Below, in pieces: positions 33,917 to 41,492 of a stretch of DNA of 41,492 bases; the first letter of the stretch is position 1, and each line of letters opens with the position of its first letter. The stretch comes from an uncultured bacterium (GTDB lineage: Bacteria > Planctomycetota > Phycisphaerae > Phycisphaerales > SM1A02), in contig CAIKXA010000028.1 in the NCBI GenBank assembly GCA_903831295.1, positions 1-41,492 of the forward strand, in the 5' to 3' direction. The position numbers and the translations under genes are program-made. The notes beneath the pieces were generated by a model. It was not told where the DNA came from. It made no database searches and saw nothing but the letters and a program-made list of their open reading frames with translations.

Positions 33917-36900
33917 TCAGCGCGTAACCCCAAGCCACAGCGCCTCAAGATCGCGCTCGCGTATGGGCGGAGTCAAGCCATGCCCCGCTCCCCAAGGCAA
34001 CAGGCGCGCAAAGCGAACGCTCCACTTGAATTGACTCCATGTTGATGCCTCGCAACGCCTTGGCCGCTCCTGCGCCAACCGCGGCTTCCATAGCGAATCA
34101 AATTGATCACGCTGCGCGCGCAATACCCCCGCACCTTCCAGTTGCGCCACGCGAGCGCGGTGCGCCTTGATCAACGTTGAAGCCACCAGCAAATAATTCA
34201 GCGGCATGTCTTGCAGCCAATCGCGCCGAAGTAAATCGTCGCGCTCGCTTTGCGCATCTTGAAGAATTGGCGCCCACGACGCCGGCGCGGGGCGCTTCAA
34301 TTCCGAATCAAGCGCCAACACTTCGTTGGCAAGAGCCGCCACGGCATGAAGGACGCGCTGCGTGGCTCCAAGGATTTTTTTATCCACGCTCTCAATCTGC
34401 TGGTTAAATTCATCACGTGTTGGAAGCGCCTCTTTGCCTTCAAGCAAAATCAACTCCGCAATACGCACAACCAATTGATGTTTCCAAGTATCTGAACTAC
34501 TGCCAGCCACGGATTGAATGGCCGTAAATTCGCCGTGAAAATCCAAATGATGCTCAATTGCGCCGTGATTCAGTTGCAACACCAACTCGCACAACGCGTG
34601 CAACTGACTTTCATACGCCTCTTGAAGCGTGGCGAATTGGCGCAAACGTACGCCTTGATCATTGTGAACTTCTTGATCAATTGCATGCTTACCAATTGTC
34701 GCGCCAACCTTCACATTCTCAGAATCATGGCGCACATTGTCGCGGCTCTTGAAATGCTCTTGAACATCAGACATTTCAAGCGCGGCCCAAGCACGCACTT
34801 GACCCACTTGATGGCCAATGTTCACCGGCATTGGCAACACCGCGGGCAAAGGCGCGATCCACCACGCAAACTCTTTGCCTATAGGCAAGCCATTTGTGGT
34901 GCGCGCAATGACTTCGCGGCGTGCAAGATCCGATTGCGCGGCAAATTTTTTCACAAGCTGCGCAGCGTCTCGACCTGTTGCCAACACACGTCCATCGCTC
35001 TCAATCACTTCAATACGCGCGCTGAAGTGCGCCGGCACATTTGCAAGCGCGAAATCTTCCACACGCACTTCAAGTCCACTGGCGCGCTTTAATTCACGCG
35101 CAAGCAATTCAAGCAGCGAACCAGAACCCACTTGGTGCTGCTCTAAAAACGCTTGAATAACAGCCTCCACTGGTTGAAATCGCGCGCGTACACGCTTGGG
35201 CAAACTGCGAATAAGCGCCTCTATTTTTTCCGCTATCAATCCCGGCACCAACCACTCAAGCCGATCGCAATCCAAATCCTGCAACTCAAGCAACGGCACG
35301 CGCACGGTCACTCCATCCGCATCGGCGCCCGGCTCATGCTGGTAATGCACATTCACCACATGACACCCAACATCCAATTGCAATGGCCACTTCGCCTCAT
35401 GCGAATCCGCAAGTGGCTCCACAAAGAAATCGGATTGCGACATGCGCAAGATTTCCGGCTTACGTCGCTCAATCACGGCGCGCCACTTCTCAAACGACGC
35501 GCGATTGAAAATAGTCAGAGGCACCACCGAGTCGTAAAATTGAAACTTGCGATCAGCGTTGGCCAGTAAATTTGCCTGTCGACGCGCGCGCGCGATTGAG
35601 TTCACCTGATCTTCAATCTTGAGATTGTGCGCTAAAAAATCTGCCTTCACGCCAAGTTGATCCTCCACCAATGCGCTGCGAATAAAAATCACGCGCGCCT
35701 CTACTTGATTGTCAACTCCATACGGCACGCGCCGACGAGGAATAAGATCAAGCTCGCCAAAACTCACGCGCTCCCACGCCGCCACTTGACCAGTGTCGCG
35801 TATGTAATGCGGCTCGCTGGTGGAACGCTTCACAAGATGCGACGCCATTTTTTCGATCCACGTTGGCTGAACTTTTCCCGCCAAGCGGCCAAGCCGCCTA
35901 CCAGTGTCCACCACTTCCCCAACAACAATCCATTCGCAATTTCGCCGCGCCAAACTAGAGCGCGCATGAATGGCAAACGTTTGCCCGTCGCTTAATTTGT
36001 ATTGACCATCCACGCCGCGGCGCGCGACCTGCGTTGCAAAACCAGCCAGCACAGCTTCATGCACCGCTCGAGTGGGAGGAGTCGCCGCGTCGCTGCCAAC
36101 TTCCGCGCGCAAACGATCGCGCACAAACCATTCCAATTGCCGTCGAACATCGCTCCACTCGCGCAACCTGCGCTGCGATAAAAAATGTTCCTTGCACCAA
36201 CGACGCAACGCGCTTGAACCCAGCGTGTCGCGCGCCTCTTTCCACGCCGTCCACAATTTCAACGCAGACATGTAGTCGCCATCTAGGTCGGCAAATTGTT
36301 GATGCGACAAGTCCGCCAGTTGCGCCTGATCCGCCGGCCGATCGCGCGGATCCGCCACCGAAAGAAACGCCGCAATGGTGAGCGCGGCGGCCGCGCAATT
36401 CAGCTCAAGCCCCGCAACCACCACGCGCGCAACCCGCGGATCAACAGGCATTTTCGCCATTTTCTTACCAACGCCACTGAGGCGACCGTGCCGATCCGTG
36501 GCTCCAATTTCAAACAGCGTGCGCTCGCCTTCTTCAATTTGACGCGCGCCCGGCGGATCCAGAAACGGAAATGTTGACGGCTCGCCCAAACCTAAATCAC
36601 GCATGCGCAGAATCACACCAGCAAGCGAAGTGCGTTTTATTTCTGGCGGCGTCGCAACGGAGCGCGCCTGAAAATCCTGCAAGTTGCCCAGGCGCACGCA
36701 CACACCCGCGGCCATGCGACCCGCCCGACCGCGCCGCTGCTCTAGTGATGCTTGGCTCGCTGGCTCCACCAACAATCGCTCTATGCGCGACTTTGGCGAG
36801 AAGCGACTCATGCGAACCAAACCGCTGTCGACCACAAACCGCACGCCTGGAACGGTCAAACTACTTTCAGCAACATTGGTGGCCAACGTCACGCGGCGCG

Positions 36901-37768
36901 TCTTGGCGGGCGCAAAAACTTCATCTTGCTGCGCGTCGCCCAAGCGCCCGTACAACGGAAGAATTTCAACCTCACGCGCTCCAGCGCGACCACGAAGCGT
37001 GTGTGCCACCTCCAAAATCTCGCGCTCGCCAGGCAAAAACGCAAGAACATCGCCAGGACCCTCCACCAAACATGCTTCAATCGCGTCGGCCATAAAAATG
37101 GGATCCGCATGATCCTCCGCAGGAATATCGCGCCAACGAACTTCCACAGGAAACGCGCGGCCAGCCACGCGAATCACGGGGCAACCACCAAATGCCTCGC
37201 TAAAGCGATCCGCCTCAAAAGTTGCGCTGGTCAAGATCACCTTGAAATCTTTTCGCGCCGCAACAATGCGTCGCAGCGCGCCAAGCAGAAAGTCAATGTT
37301 CAAACTGCGCTCATGCGCTTCGTCGACAATAATTGCGTCATAGCGCATCAGCAGCGGATCTTGCGCAAGTTGCGCCAAAATAATTCCGTCGGTGGCCACG
37401 CGCACAAGCGTGCCCGCATCCGCGCGCTGCTCAAAGCGGATTTGGTAGCCCACCAACGTTCCCAGCGGCACGCCCAACTCCGTCGCCAAACGCGTTGCCG
37501 CCGCGCGCGTTGCAATGCGTCGCGGTTGCGTGTGCGCAATTTCGCCAGCCACGCCGCATCCAATTTCAAGCAGCATCTTGGGCAGTTGCGTGGTCTTACC
37601 GCTGCCAGTTTCCGCCTCCACTACCACAACTTGATTGCCACGCAACGCCGCAAGTATGTCCACGCGCGCCGCCGTGATCGGCAGCGGCTCTGGATAGTTC
37701 AACGCCGGAACGCTGGCTCGCCGCGCGGCCTGGTTCTCTTGGCTTCGCTGATGGGGATTCGGACGCAC
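33917..37768 (-). CDS. hrpA: ATP-dependent RNA helicase HrpA (DEAH box)
   Basis: 1283 residues, full HrpA length. Walker A EAETGSGKTTQLPKMLLEIG (about residues 51-70), DEAH in IIVDEAHERSLNID, motif III SATFEADRF, and motif VI QRRGRAGRM place it in the DEAH helicases. The RecA2, winged-helix/ratchet (AFLSVADPRDRPADQAQLAD) and OB-like regions follow, then the long DUF3418 C-terminal part specific to HrpA. In E. coli HrpA rescues stalled ribosomes and processes mRNA. The GTG start at 37768 is the only good one; the true start may be slightly further in. An intrinsic terminator lies 100 nt upstream on the same strand (37873-37909), so hrpA must have its own promoter in 37769-37872, or be read through it. 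Confidence 0.95.
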   Translation of the reverse strand: MRPNPHQRSQENQAARRASVPALNYPEPLPITAARVDILAALRGNQVVVVEAETGSGKTTQLPKMLLEIGCGVAGEIAHTQPRRIATRAAATRLATELGVPLGTLVGYQIRFEQRADAGTLVRVATDGIILAQLAQDPLLMRYDAIIVDEAHERSLNIDFLLGALRRIVAARKDFKVILTSATFEADRFSEAFGGCPVIRVAGRAFPVEVRWRDIPAEDHADPIFMADAIEACLVEGPGDVLAFLPGEREILEVAHTLRGRAGAREVEILPLYGRLGDAQQDEVFAPAKTRRVTLATNVAESSLTVPGVRFVVDSGLVRMSRFSPKSRIERLLVEPASQASLEQRRGRAGRMAAGVCVRLGNLQDFQARSVATPPEIKRTSLAGVILRMRDLGLGEPSTFPFLDPPGARQIEEGERTLFEIGATDRHGRLSGVGKKMAKMPVDPRVARVVVAGLELNCAAAALTIAAFLSVADPRDRPADQAQLADLSHQQFADLDGDYMSALKLWTAWKEARDTLGSSALRRWCKEHFLSQRRLREWSDVRRQLEWFVRDRLRAEVGSDAATPPTRAVHEAVLAGFATQVARRGVDGQYKLSDGQTFAIHARSSLARRNCEWIVVGEVVDTGRRLGRLAGKVQPTWIEKMASHLVKRSTSEPHYIRDTGQVAAWERVSFGELDLIPRRRVPYGVDNQVEARVIFIRSALVEDQLGVKADFLAHNLKIEDQVNSIARARRQANLLANADRKFQFYDSVVPLTIFNRASFEKWRAVIERRKPEILRMSQSDFFVEPLADSHEAKWPLQLDVGCHVVNVHYQHEPGADADGVTVRVPLLELQDLDCDRLEWLVPGLIAEKIEALIRSLPKRVRARFQPVEAVIQAFLEQHQVGSGSLLELLARELKRASGLEVRVEDFALANVPAHFSARIEVIESDGRVLATGRDAAQLVKKFAAQSDLARREVIARTTNGLPIGKEFAWWIAPLPAVLPMPVNIGHQVGQVRAWAALEMSDVQEHFKSRDNVRHDSENVKVGATIGKHAIDQEVHNDQGVRLRQFATLQEAYESQLHALCELVLQLNHGAIEHHLDFHGEFTAIQSVAGSSSDTWKHQLVVRIAELILLEGKEALPTRDEFNQQIESVDKKILGATQRVLHAVAALANEVLALDSELKRPAPASWAPILQDAQSERDDLLRRDWLQDMPLNYLLVASTLIKAHRARVAQLEGAGVLRAQRDQFDSLWKPRLAQERPRRCEASTWSQFKWSVRFARLLPWGAGHGLTPPIRERDLEALWLGVTR

Positions 37769-37872
37769 GCGCCAATAGTAGAGCCGCCGAAATTACAAAC
37801 CACATTCAATTCAAGCTCACGAAACAGCGGCGAATTAAGCAAATCCACAACACTCAAAACACACAACTATAT

Positions 37873-37909
37873 AAAAAGCAAAACCCCGACGAAAAGGGTT
37901 ACGTCGGGG
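37873..37909 (-). terminator. Intrinsic terminator on the minus strand
   Basis: CCCCGACG (37884-37891) and CGTCGGGG (37902-37909) make a perfect 8-bp GC-rich stem with a 10-nt loop. Read on the minus strand, it is followed by TTTTGCTTTTTAT. There is no annotated minus-strand gene upstream of it, which points to an unannotated short transcript. Confidence 0.85.
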
Positions 37910-37973
37910 TAAGGTCGAGAAAGGGGGTCGACCACATGCTTGATTTGAAAGTGTCAGCACGACACTCTCTACA
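37873..37973 (-). ncRNA. Candidate small RNA, about 100 nt, with three hairpins
   Basis: Predicted from three facts: a promoter-like element at 37972-38012 pointing this way, no good ORF, and an intrinsic terminator at the far end. Reading 5' to 3' on the minus strand, hairpin 1 is AGTGTC-N5-GACACT (37966-37950), hairpin 2 GGTCGA-N9-TCGACC (37933-37913), and hairpin 3 is the terminator stem (37909-37884). The only ORF is 12 codons from ATG 37937 without a ribosome binding site; its stop TAA lies in the terminator loop. An alternative is an attenuated leader of hrpA. The expected 5' end is near 37973, by analogy with promoter spacing. Confidence 0.55.
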
Positions 37974-38012
37974 TATATGTAAACGTAAAAAACAGGTGAC
38001 CTTGATCACGCA
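37972..38012 (-). promoter_or_regulatory. Repeated two-box element, copy C (minus strand)
   Basis: Reads CGTGATC (38010-38004), 17 nt, ACGTTTA (37986-37980), then CATATATG. The whole 41 nt match copy B (40866-40906) at all but about four bases, in opposite orientation. Box size and spacing are like a -35/-10 pair. Unlike A and B, this copy also contains GTGA-N6-TCAC (38009-37996), the core of a CRP/FNR-type site. Confidence 0.6.
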
Positions 38013-38100
38013 CTTTCACATTTTTGCATATTTATTTTATTTGCCAAAAAAAGGACTCAAAACAAACAATTTGAACTATTTATTAAAAAATTGTTCAGAT
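38013..38100. other. AT-rich spacer between two divergent promoter-like elements
   Basis: 88 nt, very AT-rich (runs such as TTTATTTTATTTG and TATTAAAAAATTG), between copy C (minus) and copy A (plus). I see no ORF or clear palindrome. The A/T tracts may act as upstream (UP) elements for both sides. Confidence 0.35.
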
Positions 38101-38131
38101 CGTGATCGTCAACAGGCAAAAATTACGTTTA
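38101..38131 (+). promoter_or_regulatory. Repeated two-box element, copy A
   Basis: CGTGATC (38101-38107), 17 nt, ACGTTTA (38125-38131): same boxes and same spacing as copies B and C, but with an unrelated spacer apart from GTCA. The start codon of the next gene (38139) follows the second box by seven bases. If ACGTTTA is the -10 box, transcription would start at or next to the A of the ATG. Confidence 0.6.
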
Positions 38132-38138
38132 TATCTAT

Positions 38139-38675
38139 ATGAAGAGCATTACAAAGTATCACCAGTCGCAGGTTGAAACTGCGGACCTACAAATCACGCA
38201 AGCCGAACTCCTTTTGTGGCTGCCGAATCAGCCGCAAATTCGCCGCGAGATTCTTCATGTTTCACAAGACAGCCAGGTGTACAACCTGCTACCAAACCCA
38301 AAATTAACTGGCGGAATTAGTTTAAATCTTTGCCAAAAGCATTTTCACGCAAGTTTGTCCGGTCCGGATCGAGCAGACCTTGAAATCGAGTGTATTGTGC
38401 ATGAAGGCTCCACCATGACGCTGCCAATATGGGCCGTGGCTCAAGGACCAGACGCCGACGCGAATTTGTGGGACAGCTTTGGCCGACTTGTGGTGCCAGA
38501 TCTTTTAACCCGCGGCATTGATGCGGCAGACATTTTCTTAAATGCAGGCAAGTACATGATCATTGCCAGCGTCACGGGCAACACAACCATGGTGCTTGGC
38601 GCTGGCGTGGCCATGAGCGAAGTAACCCTTCCACTCACCGCACCCGTTCGCAGCAGATCCCGCTCCGCGAGTTAA
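38139..38675 (+). CDS. Orphan hypothetical protein, possibly from a leaderless mRNA
   Basis: 178 residues, no signal peptide, no membrane helix. The first 60 residues are polar (HQSQVETADLQITQAELLLW). The rest alternates hydrophobic and polar residues as in a beta-rich fold (GGISLNLCQKHFHASLSG, MTLPIWAVAQGPDADANLWD, AGKYMIIASVTGNTTMVLGA) and it ends in an Arg/Ser tail. I recognise no family. There is no ribosome binding site: the seven bases before the ATG are the continuation of promoter-like element A. The gene is closed by a hairpin terminator at 38715-38740, so it forms a one-gene unit next to the kinase/sigma pair. Confidence 0.75.
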   Translation: MKSITKYHQSQVETADLQITQAELLLWLPNQPQIRREILHVSQDSQVYNLLPNPKLTGGISLNLCQKHFHASLSGPDRADLEIECIVHEGSTMTLPIWAVAQGPDADANLWDSFGRLVVPDLLTRGIDAADIFLNAGKYMIIASVTGNTTMVLGAGVAMSEVTLPLTAPVRSRSRSAS

Positions 38676-38714
38676 CACTCGAAGGCAATTCACGCGACAT
38701 CTTTTAAAAGCAAT

Positions 38715-38740
38715 AAAAACGCCGTATTTGTGGCGTTTTT
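38715..38740. terminator. Bidirectional intrinsic terminator
   Basis: AAAAACGCC (38715-38723), loop GTATTTGT, GGCGTTTTT (38732-38740). A 9-bp stem with A-run on one side and T-run on the other works on both strands: for the orphan gene ending at 38675 and for the kinase gene ending at 38814. Confidence 0.85.
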
Positions 38741-38813
38741 ACATTTGCAAAATTTCAAACCAAAGCTCACTCACATCCATTGCGCTTGGTTGATTCCCCC
38801 CCGCTATTTTCAA

Positions 38814-39884
38814 TTACACAATCGCCAAAGTTGCAAGCACTGTGTCCAGCGCCTCATCAAAGGCGCGAACTGTCTGCGGCCTTGCGCTTGGAGCAATCGA
38901 CAACGCCTGGCTCAAAAGGTCGCTGATTGGACCAGCCAACTCAGGTCGCACTTCTTCAAGGCGAACGCGCTCATCCATAAGCACAGCCTTGAGCAAGCCA
39001 GCAGCGCTCTTGCCGTCGGCTTCATATGGCAACCGACCTGCGAGCATTTCATAAAGCAACAAAGCAACTTGATACACATCGCTGGTCACACCAATGCGAT
39101 CACTGCGACCATCGGTTTGCTCGGGGCTCATGTATGCGAATGTTCCCACCAAGTGACCTGTCTCCGTGCGGAAACCAGTGCGGCGACCTTCTTCATTGGT
39201 AAGGCGGGCCACGCCAAAGTCAACAAGTTTAATGTGACCATCCGCGGTCACCATAACGTTGTGAGGCTTAATGTCGCGGTGAATCACGCCAGCGTCATGC
39301 GCATGCGCCAAGGCCGCAAGAATTTCTTGAATCAGAACAATGCTGCGCGCGGGAGTTGGGCTGTGGGCCTTGGTCCACATGTCTAGCGACATGCCGCTGA
39401 TAAATTCCATCACCAAGTACGTGTTGCCATTCACGGAACCTGTTTCCACAACCTGCACAATGCCCGAATGTGAAAGCCGTGACAAGGCGCGGCATTCTTG
39501 GCGAAATCGCTGCAACACTTGGCTACCCGCGCCATGCGAGCGAACCATTTTAATAGCCACGCGACGGCCAGTTGAACTATTCGTTGCGCTATACACGCTG
39601 CCCGCGCCACCGGAACCCAACACGCTGTCAATGGTGTAGCCAGAAATCTCTGGCAGTGGTTCTTCATGCTCAACAGCGATTGCGGCAGCGTCGGCAGGCA
39701 TGACCATGTCATTTGAGATCATGTCACCTTCAAGCAAGCCTTCTACTTCCGCACGAATGCCGGCATCGGGGCAGGCAAAATCCATGAACGCTTTGCGCTG
39801 TGGAGCCGACATGCATGACACAGTGTCAAAGAGACCACGAACAATCATCCAACGATTTGGAAGATTTTGCGGGCAAAGGCTCAC
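38814..39884 (-). CDS. Serine/threonine protein kinase (PknB-type, cytoplasmic)
   Basis: 356 residues starting at GTG 39884, which overlaps the sigma factor stop (GTGA). Residues about 14-55 (LFDTVSCMSAPQRKAF; IRAEVEGLLEGD) are the helical N-terminal segment usual in planctomycete and acidobacterial kinases paired with ECF-like sigma factors. The kinase domain is complete: Gly loop GSGGAGSVYSA (90-100), Lys112 in VAIKMV, HRDIKPHNV (202-210), VDFGVARL (221-228), GTFAYMSPEQ (247-256) and SDVYQVALLLYEMLAGRLPY. There is no transmembrane segment and no sensor domain, so the input signal must come through the N-terminal segment or a partner. ATG 39848 is another start. Likely substrate by context: the sigma factor. 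Confidence 0.93.
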   Translation of the reverse strand: MSLCPQNLPNRWMIVRGLFDTVSCMSAPQRKAFMDFACPDAGIRAEVEGLLEGDMISNDMVMPADAAAIAVEHEEPLPEISGYTIDSVLGSGGAGSVYSATNSSTGRRVAIKMVRSHGAGSQVLQRFRQECRALSRLSHSGIVQVVETGSVNGNTYLVMEFISGMSLDMWTKAHSPTPARSIVLIQEILAALAHAHDAGVIHRDIKPHNVMVTADGHIKLVDFGVARLTNEEGRRTGFRTETGHLVGTFAYMSPEQTDGRSDRIGVTSDVYQVALLLYEMLAGRLPYEADGKSAAGLLKAVLMDERVRLEEVRPELAGPISDLLSQALSIAPSARPQTVRAFDEALDTVLATLAIV

Positions 39885-40492
39885 TGAGTCACCTCCGCGG
39901 AACTGTCATCAATTGTGCCAATCACATTGCTCGCGCTTGGTCGCAAAGCACCAGTGCGAACGCGAACATCGTAATCCGTCTGCAGCCATGCTTTGGCGAA
40001 GCGCCAATCGCGGGTCACTGTCGCGCTGCTTAAATCCAACAAGCGCGCAATGTGTTCTGGTTCCAAACCACCAAAGATGCGCAATTCTGCTACTTGGGCA
40101 CTGCGAGGATCTTCCTTGGCCAAGCTTTGCAACGCATCTTCCAAAGCAAGAATGCCGCCGGAATCAACTGTCGCGTCAAATGGTTCAAATACATCCGTGC
40201 TGGCTTTGAAGCTCTGTCCACCACGCTTCTTGGCGAGGCGACGGCGCGCATGATCGCCCAAGACGGAACGAAGCACAGTGGCTGCGGTGGCCAGAAAGTG
40301 CTCTTCTGTTTTAAATTCACTTGAATCACGTTCCGCCAATTTAATGAATGCTTCATGCACAACCGCGGTTGGTTGCAATGTGTGGCCGCGAGGTTGCGAA
40401 CGCATATGCAAAGCGCTCAGCTCCTTCAAGCGAACATAAATACTTTCAAACAGATCTGAAAGTGGCAAAGTTGTCTGTTGGGAATCGGACAC
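39881..40492 (-). CDS. ECF-like RNA polymerase sigma factor (TIGR02999 type)
   Basis: 203 residues. Region 2: GHTLQPTAVVHEAFIKLAER, then HFLATAATVLRSVLGDHARR, then RLAKKRGG. Region 4: LEDALQSLAKEDPRSAQVAE, LRIFGGLEPEHIARLLDLSS with the helix-turn-helix, and TVTRDWRFAKAWL. These are the signatures of the ECF-like subfamily found mainly in planctomycetes and acidobacteria, often with a Ser/Thr kinase next door. There is no anti-sigma gene; the coupled kinase probably takes the control role. The start is GTG 40492, supported by GGAG about seven bases upstream. The C-terminal tail (about residues 182-203) is an extra, polar and possibly phosphorylated segment. Confidence 0.92.
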   Translation of the reverse strand: MSDSQQTTLPLSDLFESIYVRLKELSALHMRSQPRGHTLQPTAVVHEAFIKLAERDSSEFKTEEHFLATAATVLRSVLGDHARRRLAKKRGGQSFKASTDVFEPFDATVDSGGILALEDALQSLAKEDPRSAQVAELRIFGGLEPEHIARLLDLSSATVTRDWRFAKAWLQTDYDVRVRTGALRPSASNVIGTIDDSSAEVTQ

Positions 40493-40865
40493 AGGGGAAC
40501 TCCAAAAAACATATTAGTTTTAATTCTTCTGGAAACGCCCAGAGTCTTCAAAACCCGGAACTAACCCCTAACCATCCGACCATCCCTTGTATCTCCGACT
40601 CCTTGAACATACACCAATTACCAAACAAAGCAAGACAGTGTCGATAAATAGATTTTTATTATTTGGATCTGAACACATAAAGTGCCATTGAGATGCCTTA
40701 GGGGTGTATTTGGAATTAAAAAATTTAAAAAATATGGCGTATAACCCCCACCTTGCGCACCGAATTTAAGTTTTTGTGGCCTGTGGTCAAAGTCCCCACG
40801 AGCAAAGTGCATGGCTTTGCGGCAACAAATGAGCCATTTACAAAATATTTATAAATATCGCGTAT
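40493..40865. promoter_or_regulatory. Upstream region of the sigma factor, AT-rich with short direct repeats
   Basis: 373 nt without a convincing gene. Near 40561 there are short direct repeats (CTAACC-CCTAACC, then CCATCC-GACCATCC). At 40716-40735 lies an A-tract cluster (AATTAAAAAATTTAAAAAAT), flanked by TAGGGGT and ATAACCCCC. The sigma promoter must be here, but I cannot place it. The CGTGATC-N17-ACGTTTA element is not present on the minus strand in this gap, so there is no sign of autoregulation through it. Confidence 0.4.
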
Positions 40866-40906
40866 TGCGTGATCAAGGTCAGTCATTTTTTACGTTTACA
40901 TATATG
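40866..40906 (+). promoter_or_regulatory. Repeated two-box element, copy B
   Basis: CGTGATC (40868-40874), 17 nt, ACGTTTA (40892-40898), then CATATATG. Nearly identical over 41 nt to copy C in opposite orientation. It points to the secreted-protein gene at 41068, so the expected 5' end is near 40905 and the leader is about 160 nt. Confidence 0.62.
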
Positions 40907-41067
40907 GAAGACCTGTTTTGGTGCAGTGGGAACTGCCACCGAACCAGCAATCCAAGACTGCTTGGATTTGGGCCGCAGACCGACGGATTCGGTGAATTGG
41001 AAAGCTTCAGCGTTGAAGCTATTGCCAATGATTCTTACTGGTTTTTGCATTATTTAAGGATTCACCA
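40907..41067 (+). promoter_or_regulatory. Structured 5' leader with four consecutive hairpins
   Basis: Stem-loops in order: GGTGCAGT-GGGA-ACTGcCACC (40920-40940, a GNRA-type tetraloop and one bulged C); AATCCAAG-ACTG-CTTGGATT (40949-40968, 8 bp); ACCGA-CGGAT-TCGGT (40979-40993); AGCTTCA-GCGT-TGAAGCT (41003-41020), enclosed by ATTGG (40996-41000) and CCAAT (41025-41029). A 76-codon frame runs through from ATG 40904 and overlaps the next gene; it has no family likeness and I take it as chance. The leader may be a riboregulator or a stabiliser of an abundant mRNA. It matches no riboswitch class that I know. Confidence 0.55.
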
Positions 41068-41492
41068 ATGTTCAAATTCGCCTCTAATCGATCCTCTTTG
41101 GCTGTTTATCTACTTGCCTGCTCAGGCTTTATAGCTTCTGGCGCAAGCGCCAACCCTGGCGTGATTTACAATGACGCCATTGGCGACATTTCTATTAACC
41201 TTGCAACAGGCGGCGGAACGCTTGACCTTGTGTCAATGGAAGTTTCGCACACCGCGACTGACATTCAGTTTAAGTTGACCGTGAACGGCAACATCGGCGA
41301 CACCAATTGGGGCAAGTTCATGGTTGGTATTGCCAACAACAAGGGCAACGGCACCAGCAGCAGCGATGGTTGGGCTCGTCCAATCACCATGAGTGCAAAT
41401 GGCGGCATGACCAATTGGCTTGGCTCATGGGTTGATAGCGGCGGCGGCGCGGAAAATTACAGCAAGCAAGCATCTTGGGGCTTAACTGGCGC
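41068..41492 (+). CDS. Secreted protein, C-terminus beyond the window
   Basis: Partial, 141 residues visible. The start ATG 41068 has AAGGA eight bases upstream. The signal peptide runs SLAVYLLACSGFIASGASA with cleavage before NPGVIYNDAIGD. The mature part is Gly/Asn/Ser-rich and beta-like (GGTLDLVSMEVSHTATDIQF, NWGKFMVGIANNKGNG, MTNWLGSWVDSGGGAENYSK). It resembles extracellular planctomycete proteins that end in a PEP-CTERM-type sorting signal, but the end that would show this is cut off. Codon use has more runs of AAC/GGC/ACC than the neighbours, as in strongly expressed genes. Preceded by copy B and the structured leader. Confidence 0.82.
   Translation, partial: MFKFASNRSSLAVYLLACSGFIASGASANPGVIYNDAIGDISINLATGGGTLDLVSMEVSHTATDIQFKLTVNGNIGDTNWGKFMVGIANNKGNGTSSSDGWARPITMSANGGMTNWLGSWVDSGGGAENYSKQASWGLTG

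Follow-up and report, generated by a model that had tools for sequence, protein, structure and literature searches.

A candidate promoter element, TGA-N20-CGTTT, before PEP-CTERM-like genes, a small RNA and an orphan gene next to a kinase-linked sigma factor in a planctomycete genus

Organization of the locus

The stretch of DNA analysed here (the window) was contig C28, 41,492 nucleotides (nt) long, of an uncultured planctomycete (CAIKXA010000028.1; genome G000, an assembly of 2.48 Mb that is 84% complete). The analysis concerned a two-box, promoter-like element, CGTGATC-N17-ACGTTTA, whose copies lie around the genes of an extracytoplasmic function (ECF) sigma factor and a Ser/Thr kinase (Table 1). 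All figures come from sequence comparison and predictions: the sequence itself shows the motif with its spacing, positions and conservation, from which a promoter is predicted.

A sequence-only reading of the window had reported three exact copies of the element with an identical 17-nt spacing, and these were found at the claimed positions, with the sigma factor and kinase pair between them; no other mismatch-free match was present in the window. When up to three mismatches were allowed, seven matches were obtained in all, the four non-exact ones each with three mismatches. At this tolerance 100 shuffles of the window gave a mean of 2.7 matches, and one shuffle reached the observed seven. By simple arithmetic, about 3e-4 exact matches to the 14 fixed bases were expected by chance in 41 kb on both strands. 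The copies at 37980 (minus strand) and 40868 (plus strand) were nearly identical, as had been stated, having CGTGATCAAGGTCA-N4-TTTTTTACGTTTACATATATG in common, and the 38101 copy shared little with the other copies outside the boxes (CGTGATCGTCAACAGGCAAAAATTACGTTTA).

Table 1. Features of the window that relate to the element (positions count from the first nucleotide of the window; aa, amino acids)
Feature	Position	Strand	Remarks
Small RNA, conserved, ~100 nt	37873..37974	-	Match of model R1; intrinsic terminator, C/U-rich loops; alignment and covariation
Candidate promoter of the small RNA	37980..38010	-	-35 box CGTGATC 38004-38010, -10 box ACGTTTA 37980-37986; TGA-N20-CGTTT kept in 9/9 intergenic regions
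Candidate promoter of the orphan gene	38101..38131	+	Back to back with the small RNA promoter; predicted start codon 7-9 nt past the box in 9/9 genomes
Orphan protein, 178 aa	38139..38675	+	No Pfam or NCBIfam family; mostly beta fold predicted (mean pLDDT, the predicted local distance difference test score, 79.7); near-leaderless start
Hanks-type Ser/Thr kinase, 356 aa	38814..39884	-	All catalytic motifs present; no strong membrane segment
ECF sigma factor, 203 aa	39881..40492	-	PF07638 130.3 bits (cut-off 21.1), TIGR02999 170.7 bits (cut-off 126.15); QPTA in the place of DAED
Candidate promoter of the PEP-CTERM-like gene adjoining the sigma factor	40868..40898	+	Exact motif match
Hairpin with GNRA tetraloop (GCAGTGGGAACTGC)	40923..40936	+	In the 5' leader; same kind in 5/8 leaders scanned, this one included
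Open reading frame (ORF) running into the contig end	41068..41490	+	Signal-peptide-like N-terminus (by eye)

The element in the genome and in the genus

The searches covered a panel of 61 genomes, namely 16 congeners (G000-G015, the own genome included) and 45 others, and the reversed motif was used as the control in the genome-wide searches for the element. With up to two mismatches allowed, 23 matches were counted in the own genome (nine exact, four with one mismatch and ten with two), and not hundreds of copies within genes; the control gave 14 at the same tolerance. Three of the two-mismatch matches resembled the remaining sites across the core. The aligned own-genome sites had TTGC[GT]TGATCAAGRTCA..TTTTTTACGTTTACAT in common, and a longer pattern yielded 14 sites in the own genome against none in the control, with matches in 6 of the 61 genomes, all of the same genus. 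A looser pattern, GTGA-N14-TTTTTACGTTTA with up to two mismatches, matched 8 of the 16 congeners (control 0-2 per genome) and added G004, where the -35 part is mostly TGACTG, and G013. Across 11 own-genome sites the mean pairwise identity fell from 0.81 within the core of the element to 0.52 and 0.57 in the immediate flanks and to 0.33 and 0.27 further out.

Three congeners, G003, G010 and G012, are GC-rich and carry an orthologue of the window's sigma factor that is 69-71% identical; the small RNA and the orphan gene still stand back to back there. The intergenic region between these two genes was compared in nine genomes (G000, G002, G003, G004, G005, G007, G010, G012 and G015); G011, whose contig lacks the orphan gene, was left out, and G006 was read by eye. 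TGA-N20-CGTTT was present on both strands, at the exact spacing, in all nine regions. Among the other TGA-Nk-CGTTT spacings (k from 5 to 40), a match was recorded in one of nine regions on the orphan strand and in five of nine on the small RNA strand, at a spacing of 30 (in one also at 40). For the three GC-rich regions, first-order simulated sequence gave a chance of 0.3-0.8% per strand for TGA-N20-CGTTT. In G006, TGAGGG-N17-CGTTGC was seen before the small RNA. The part of the element that survives in evolution is TGA-N20-CGTTT, which is shorter than the reported motif. The proposed two-box promoter format with a fixed spacing was supported in this way, and so was CGT as a feature of the -10 box, since it occurred in the box of the sites compared, the GC-rich clade included.

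Genes behind the element

The targets were classified for all sites with at most one mismatch from the looser-pattern search in eight congeneric genomes (n=52). Thirty of the sites preceded genes for PEP-CTERM-like proteins, so labelled because their tail consists of P.PG, a hydrophobic part and Arg; eight preceded the small RNA, 14 were classed as contig ends because fewer than 700 nt of contig (20-652 nt) followed them, and none lay elsewhere. The 30 sites serve 28 genes, 27 from a count of genes and the one on G007 C131. The script itself had returned 28 sites as PEP-CTERM-like and two as 'other', both of which turned out to precede tail genes beyond its limits: the gene on G004 C43 is long, and that on G007 C131 has ~16 residues after the tail. 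The 11 two-mismatch sites of the same genomes comprised six before tail genes, three near contig ends and two before neither. At the sites corresponding to the 40868 copy in G007 and G004, the genes downstream bear PEP-CTERM-like tails.

In the own genome 26 tails were found and eight tail genes lay behind a site (up to two mismatches), with six more sites running off contigs; the set therefore takes in some but not all of the tail proteins. A further 75 tail ORFs, drawn from the tails listed and not from all of them, and including a few spurious ORFs, were searched upstream. TGA[CGT]GG-N17-CGTTT occurred five times (once each in G003, G010 and G012, twice in G008), compared with once in total for eleven other spacings, and the looser TGA-N20-CGTTT occurred before 6 of the 75, compared with 0-3 for eight neighbouring spacings. 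Searched across whole genomes, TGABGG-N16-KCGTTTY gave 17 matches in the 16 congeners: four each in G003 and G010, three each in G012 and G008, one each in G001, G002 and G004, and none in the other nine (reversed control 0-1 per genome). Six of these matches were the small RNA and orphan promoters, four preceded tail genes, one (G008 C302:717) preceded an ORF that runs into the end of its contig, and the remaining six were assigned to no target or lay over long ORFs.

The family models were applied to ten tail proteins. TIGR02595 scored one of them above its 16-bit cut-off and six at 11.0-15.6 bits, with no match for the other three, and PF07589 scored none of the ten above its cut-off. An exosortase (PF09721) was found above the cut-off in 14 of the 16 congeners, on contig C67 in the own genome; it was not found in G010 and G012, and G003 had a fragment only. 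The sequence-only reading had proposed a local regulon made up of a small RNA and two proteins, one orphan and one secreted. These three kept their place as predicted targets, but the set is not local, the element being genome-wide and mainly before PEP-CTERM-like genes.

The leaders measured before tail genes of the own genome were roughly 130-290 nt long. Short hairpins with a GNRA tetraloop (GCAGTGGGAACTGC, GCGGTGCGAACCGC and AAGGCGAAAGCCTT) were noticed in the 5' leaders, among them that of the window (Table 1), L021 and L028. Tandem copies of the element ~460-510 nt apart were also observed (L022, 3929 and 4393; G004 C43 and C104; G013 C40), and the first copy of a tandem pair precedes a near-identical leader (GGATAGCGAGTTGAAGCG...).

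The small RNA and the orphan protein

In 11 of the 16 congeners the small RNA model had a match (E <= 7e-15); the 45 other genomes gave no match at E < 0.005. Outside the genus, seven matches with E of 0.005-0.05 were treated as chance; the filters there were stricter and may miss weak matches. An Rfam scan of 37600-41492 gave no match for the small RNA. In the nine sequences aligned the terminator stem was largely invariant, 12 of the 26 predicted pairs showed a two-sided change in at least one sequence, and several predicted pairs of the 5' hairpin were broken. A peptide gene is unlikely because the first ATG in G000 is directly followed by TAG. Two near-identical small RNA regions were observed on different contigs of G002 (L089 C389 and L099 C27), as a duplication or an assembly artefact. 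In the window, a DEAH-type helicase with DUF3418 (33917-37768) adjoins the small RNA.

At the orphan gene, the in-frame ATG or GTG lies 7 nt past the box in six genomes and 9 nt past it in three, the distance that a -10 element would require. This predicted start is the first in-frame start codon past the box in eight of the nine genomes, G003 also having a TTG directly after the box; later in-frame starts are present in seven of the nine. Should the box be a -10 element and translation begin at the predicted start, the transcript would have no leader or almost none. A Foldseek search of the PDB with the predicted structure gave no confident match (best E 0.01; TM-score to the query at most 0.34 among the 50 matches listed).

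The sigma factor and the kinase

The sequence HTLQPTA was invariant in all nine orthologues of the window's sigma factor. Its QPTA was set opposite DAED/QTTA by eye, using the motif given in the available text of PMC13147305. A Ser/Thr kinase adjoins the sigma factor in eight of the nine genomes where the latter is at least 67% identical (G000, G002, G003, G004, G007, G010, G012 and G015), and in the ninth, G006, the kinase is truncated. A PDB sequence search with the sigma factor found no relative at E <= 0.01. By analogy with ECF43 proteins, the sigma factor is probably activated by the kinase through phosphorylation of the Thr of QPTA, T42.

In G006 C3 (L167, 5686-6670) the kinase gene is cut after ~100 codons and the sigma factor and small RNA are kept; if correctly assembled, this genome would have lost its kinase naturally. 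The orphan gene was not found in G006.

Among the 11 congeners that bear the small RNA, nine had the sigma factor at 67-100% identity, and in the other two the contig breaks where it would lie: the contig of G005 begins inside the kinase gene and keeps the kinase C-terminus, and that of G011 starts 165 nt before the small RNA promoter. Neither the sigma factor nor the small RNA was detected in G001, G008, G009, G013 and G014. TGA-N20-CGTTT was present at none of six tail ORFs in G001, none of four in G009 and one of 12 in G014, these being the better-assembled genomes without the sigma factor. In L248, where the sigma factor is 61% identical, a kinase and an orphan-like gene were present; no small RNA match was found there, nor any TGA-N20-CGTT in the 340 nt scanned at the start of the orphan-like gene.

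Interpretation and alternative explanations

We proposed that the element is a promoter of the alternative (ECF) sigma type, in which a fixed spacer separates a -35 box TGAY (in this clade extended, to GCGTGATCAAGGTCA or GCGTGACTG...) from a -10 box CGTTT, and that it would be read by the ECF sigma factor encoded between its copies. Since the RNA-polymerase-binding motif of this protein is QPTA and not DAED, the unphosphorylated sigma factor is probably weak or inactive, and the co-encoded soluble Ser/Thr kinase would turn it on. The regulon would comprise a subset of the exosortase-sorted PEP-CTERM-like genes, the ~100-nt small RNA and the small, near-leaderless, mostly beta protein. Judged from the sequence data, we consider this proposal, kinase activation and regulon included, rather probable.

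Several observations weigh against it. The -35 box is TGA and not AAC, and in the AT-rich clade the -35 area forms a partial dyad of the kind seen in activator sites. No TGA-N20-CGTTT precedes the sigma factor gene itself, so there is no autoregulation to cite. The sigma factor, kinase, orphan gene and small RNA are neighbours, and their joint presence or loss is therefore not independent evidence. In G006, where the sigma factor is present, TGA-N20-CGTTT was found at none of the ten tail ORFs examined and the GC-form gave no match; in the GC-rich genomes that bear the sigma factor it was found at just 1/9, 1/5 and 1/2 of the tail ORFs examined. Persistence of the motif in relatives without the sigma factor, which the sequence-only reading had named as refuting it, was on paper seen twice, both times in fragmented assemblies where gaps are possible. 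In G013 (92% complete, 80 contigs) two tail genes have three sites in front of them, one of these sites with two mismatches, and neither an orthologue of the sigma factor (E <= 0.001) nor the kinase (E <= 1e-40) nor the small RNA was detected. In G008 (91%, 700 contigs), where no sigma factor orthologue or small RNA was detected, sites of the GC-form precede two tail genes and an ORF that the contig end cuts. Gaps at the sigma cluster are plausible because contigs of the AT-rich clade break nearby (contigs of 3.2-5.3 kb in G002, G005, G007 and G015), which is an argument and not a proof. A gene that adjoins the cluster in G004 was searched to distinguish a loss in G013 from a gap; it was found only in G000 and G004. 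We regard G013 and G008 as serious exceptions and G006 as a lesser one.

The two serious exceptions raise the question whether a different sigma factor, a second kinase-linked or a general ECF one, reads the element of the surface-protein set, the window's sigma factor being just nearby. For the GC-rich clade its strongest form is a second PF07638 sigma factor (117-126 bits), common to G003, G008, G010 and G012, which a kinase adjoins in the first three of these and which in G003 shares a contig (L341, C215) with the exosortase fragment and a large kinase protein. In G013 a weaker general ECF factor is the sole PF07638 match. However, no TGA-N20-CGTTT occurred in 46.6 kb around the second sigma factor in the four genomes; in every intact cluster, by contrast, the window's sigma factor is flanked by two or three of them. 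The next-best PF07638 matches of the AT-rich clade reach only 74-81 bits, general ECF factors are also present where the promoter is absent (G014 and G001, for example), and the small RNA was never found in a genome without the sigma factor except at contig breaks. A different reader of the element was judged doubtful.

The dyad raises another explanation, in which the -35 region (GTGA-N6-TCAC) binds a transcription activator that acts together with a sigma factor of the housekeeping type. This dyad is, we assume, CRP/FNR-like in form, GTGATCAAGGTCAC, GTGACTGAGGTCAC and GTGACTGTCGACAC are imperfect palindromes, and some forms (CTTGATC-N16-TACGTT, for instance) look like a weak sigma-70 promoter. 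Yet several sites have lost the right half (GTCAGTC, GTCATAT, GGTGGGG), as has the GC-rich clade, which keeps TGA and CGTTT at the fixed spacing but not the sigma-70 -10 box TAnnnT (GCGTTT, TCGTTT). A housekeeping promoter was rejected on the latter ground, and the activator site is distinctly unlikely. It is still harder to believe that the copies belong to a mobile cassette or a multi-copy repeat and are alike through recent duplication and not function. Promoter and leader cassettes do recur near-identically and many copies lie at contig ends, but the leaders that follow the element differ, the small RNA and the orphan gene also lie behind it, and its spacing is kept across the clade where the sequence has otherwise changed. 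A plain repeat was rejected because the identity of the 11 own-genome sites falls from the core value to 0.27-0.57 in the flanks.

Returning to the proposed ECF promoter, we put at somewhat better than even the broader possibility that the exosortase-sorted surface proteins of this freshwater planctomycete genus have a dedicated regulator in the form of a kinase-switched ECF sigma factor, acting through a new promoter class, TGA-N20-CGTTT, with a co-expressed new small RNA that maybe tunes the set. If true, this would be an answer other than sigma-54 to the co-regulation of PEP-CTERM proteins outside Proteobacteria. Planctomycetes have many ECF sigma factors, kinase-linked groups included, and to our knowledge few of them have assigned targets. 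A promoter of exact spacing, a list of targets and a conserved companion small RNA make one such sigma factor directly testable. No published report of a link between such a sigma factor and PEP-CTERM-like proteins was found in the literature searched, which excludes most subscription journals.

Comparison with known systems

In typical ECF promoters, as described in the available part of PMC8103513, AAC is found at -35 and CGT at -10. The element shares with them the CGT and the fixed spacing, but its -35 box is TGA(C/T/G) in place of AAC.

According to the available text of PMC1569441, the PEP-CTERM regulon of Proteobacteria uses a sigma-54 promoter and PrsK/PrsR/PrsT; its authors reported that motif in Proteobacteria only and stated that more regulators and motifs were still to be found, a gap to which the present element is a candidate answer. 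In both systems the marked exosortase-substrate genes have long non-coding regions upstream and an element there in common, which speaks for a single regulator dedicated to them. Theirs is a -24/-12 motif with a response regulator, whereas the planctomycete element is of the ECF-type TGA/CGTTT form.

The closest likeness of the sigma factor, by motif and adjacent kinase, was to ECF43 proteins, for which the available portions of PMC13147305 and PMC8999054 give QTTA in the place of DAED. As in EcfP/PknT of Vibrio and EcfK/PknS of Xanthomonas, the ECF sigma factor lies beside a Ser/Thr kinase and DAED is exchanged for an uncharged motif with a conserved Thr. The motif is QPTA here and QTTA there; PknS is transmembrane, whereas the kinase of the window has no strong membrane segment; and the target set predicted here is made up of exosortase substrates plus a small RNA, in contrast to the type VI secretion or polymyxin resistance described for those systems.

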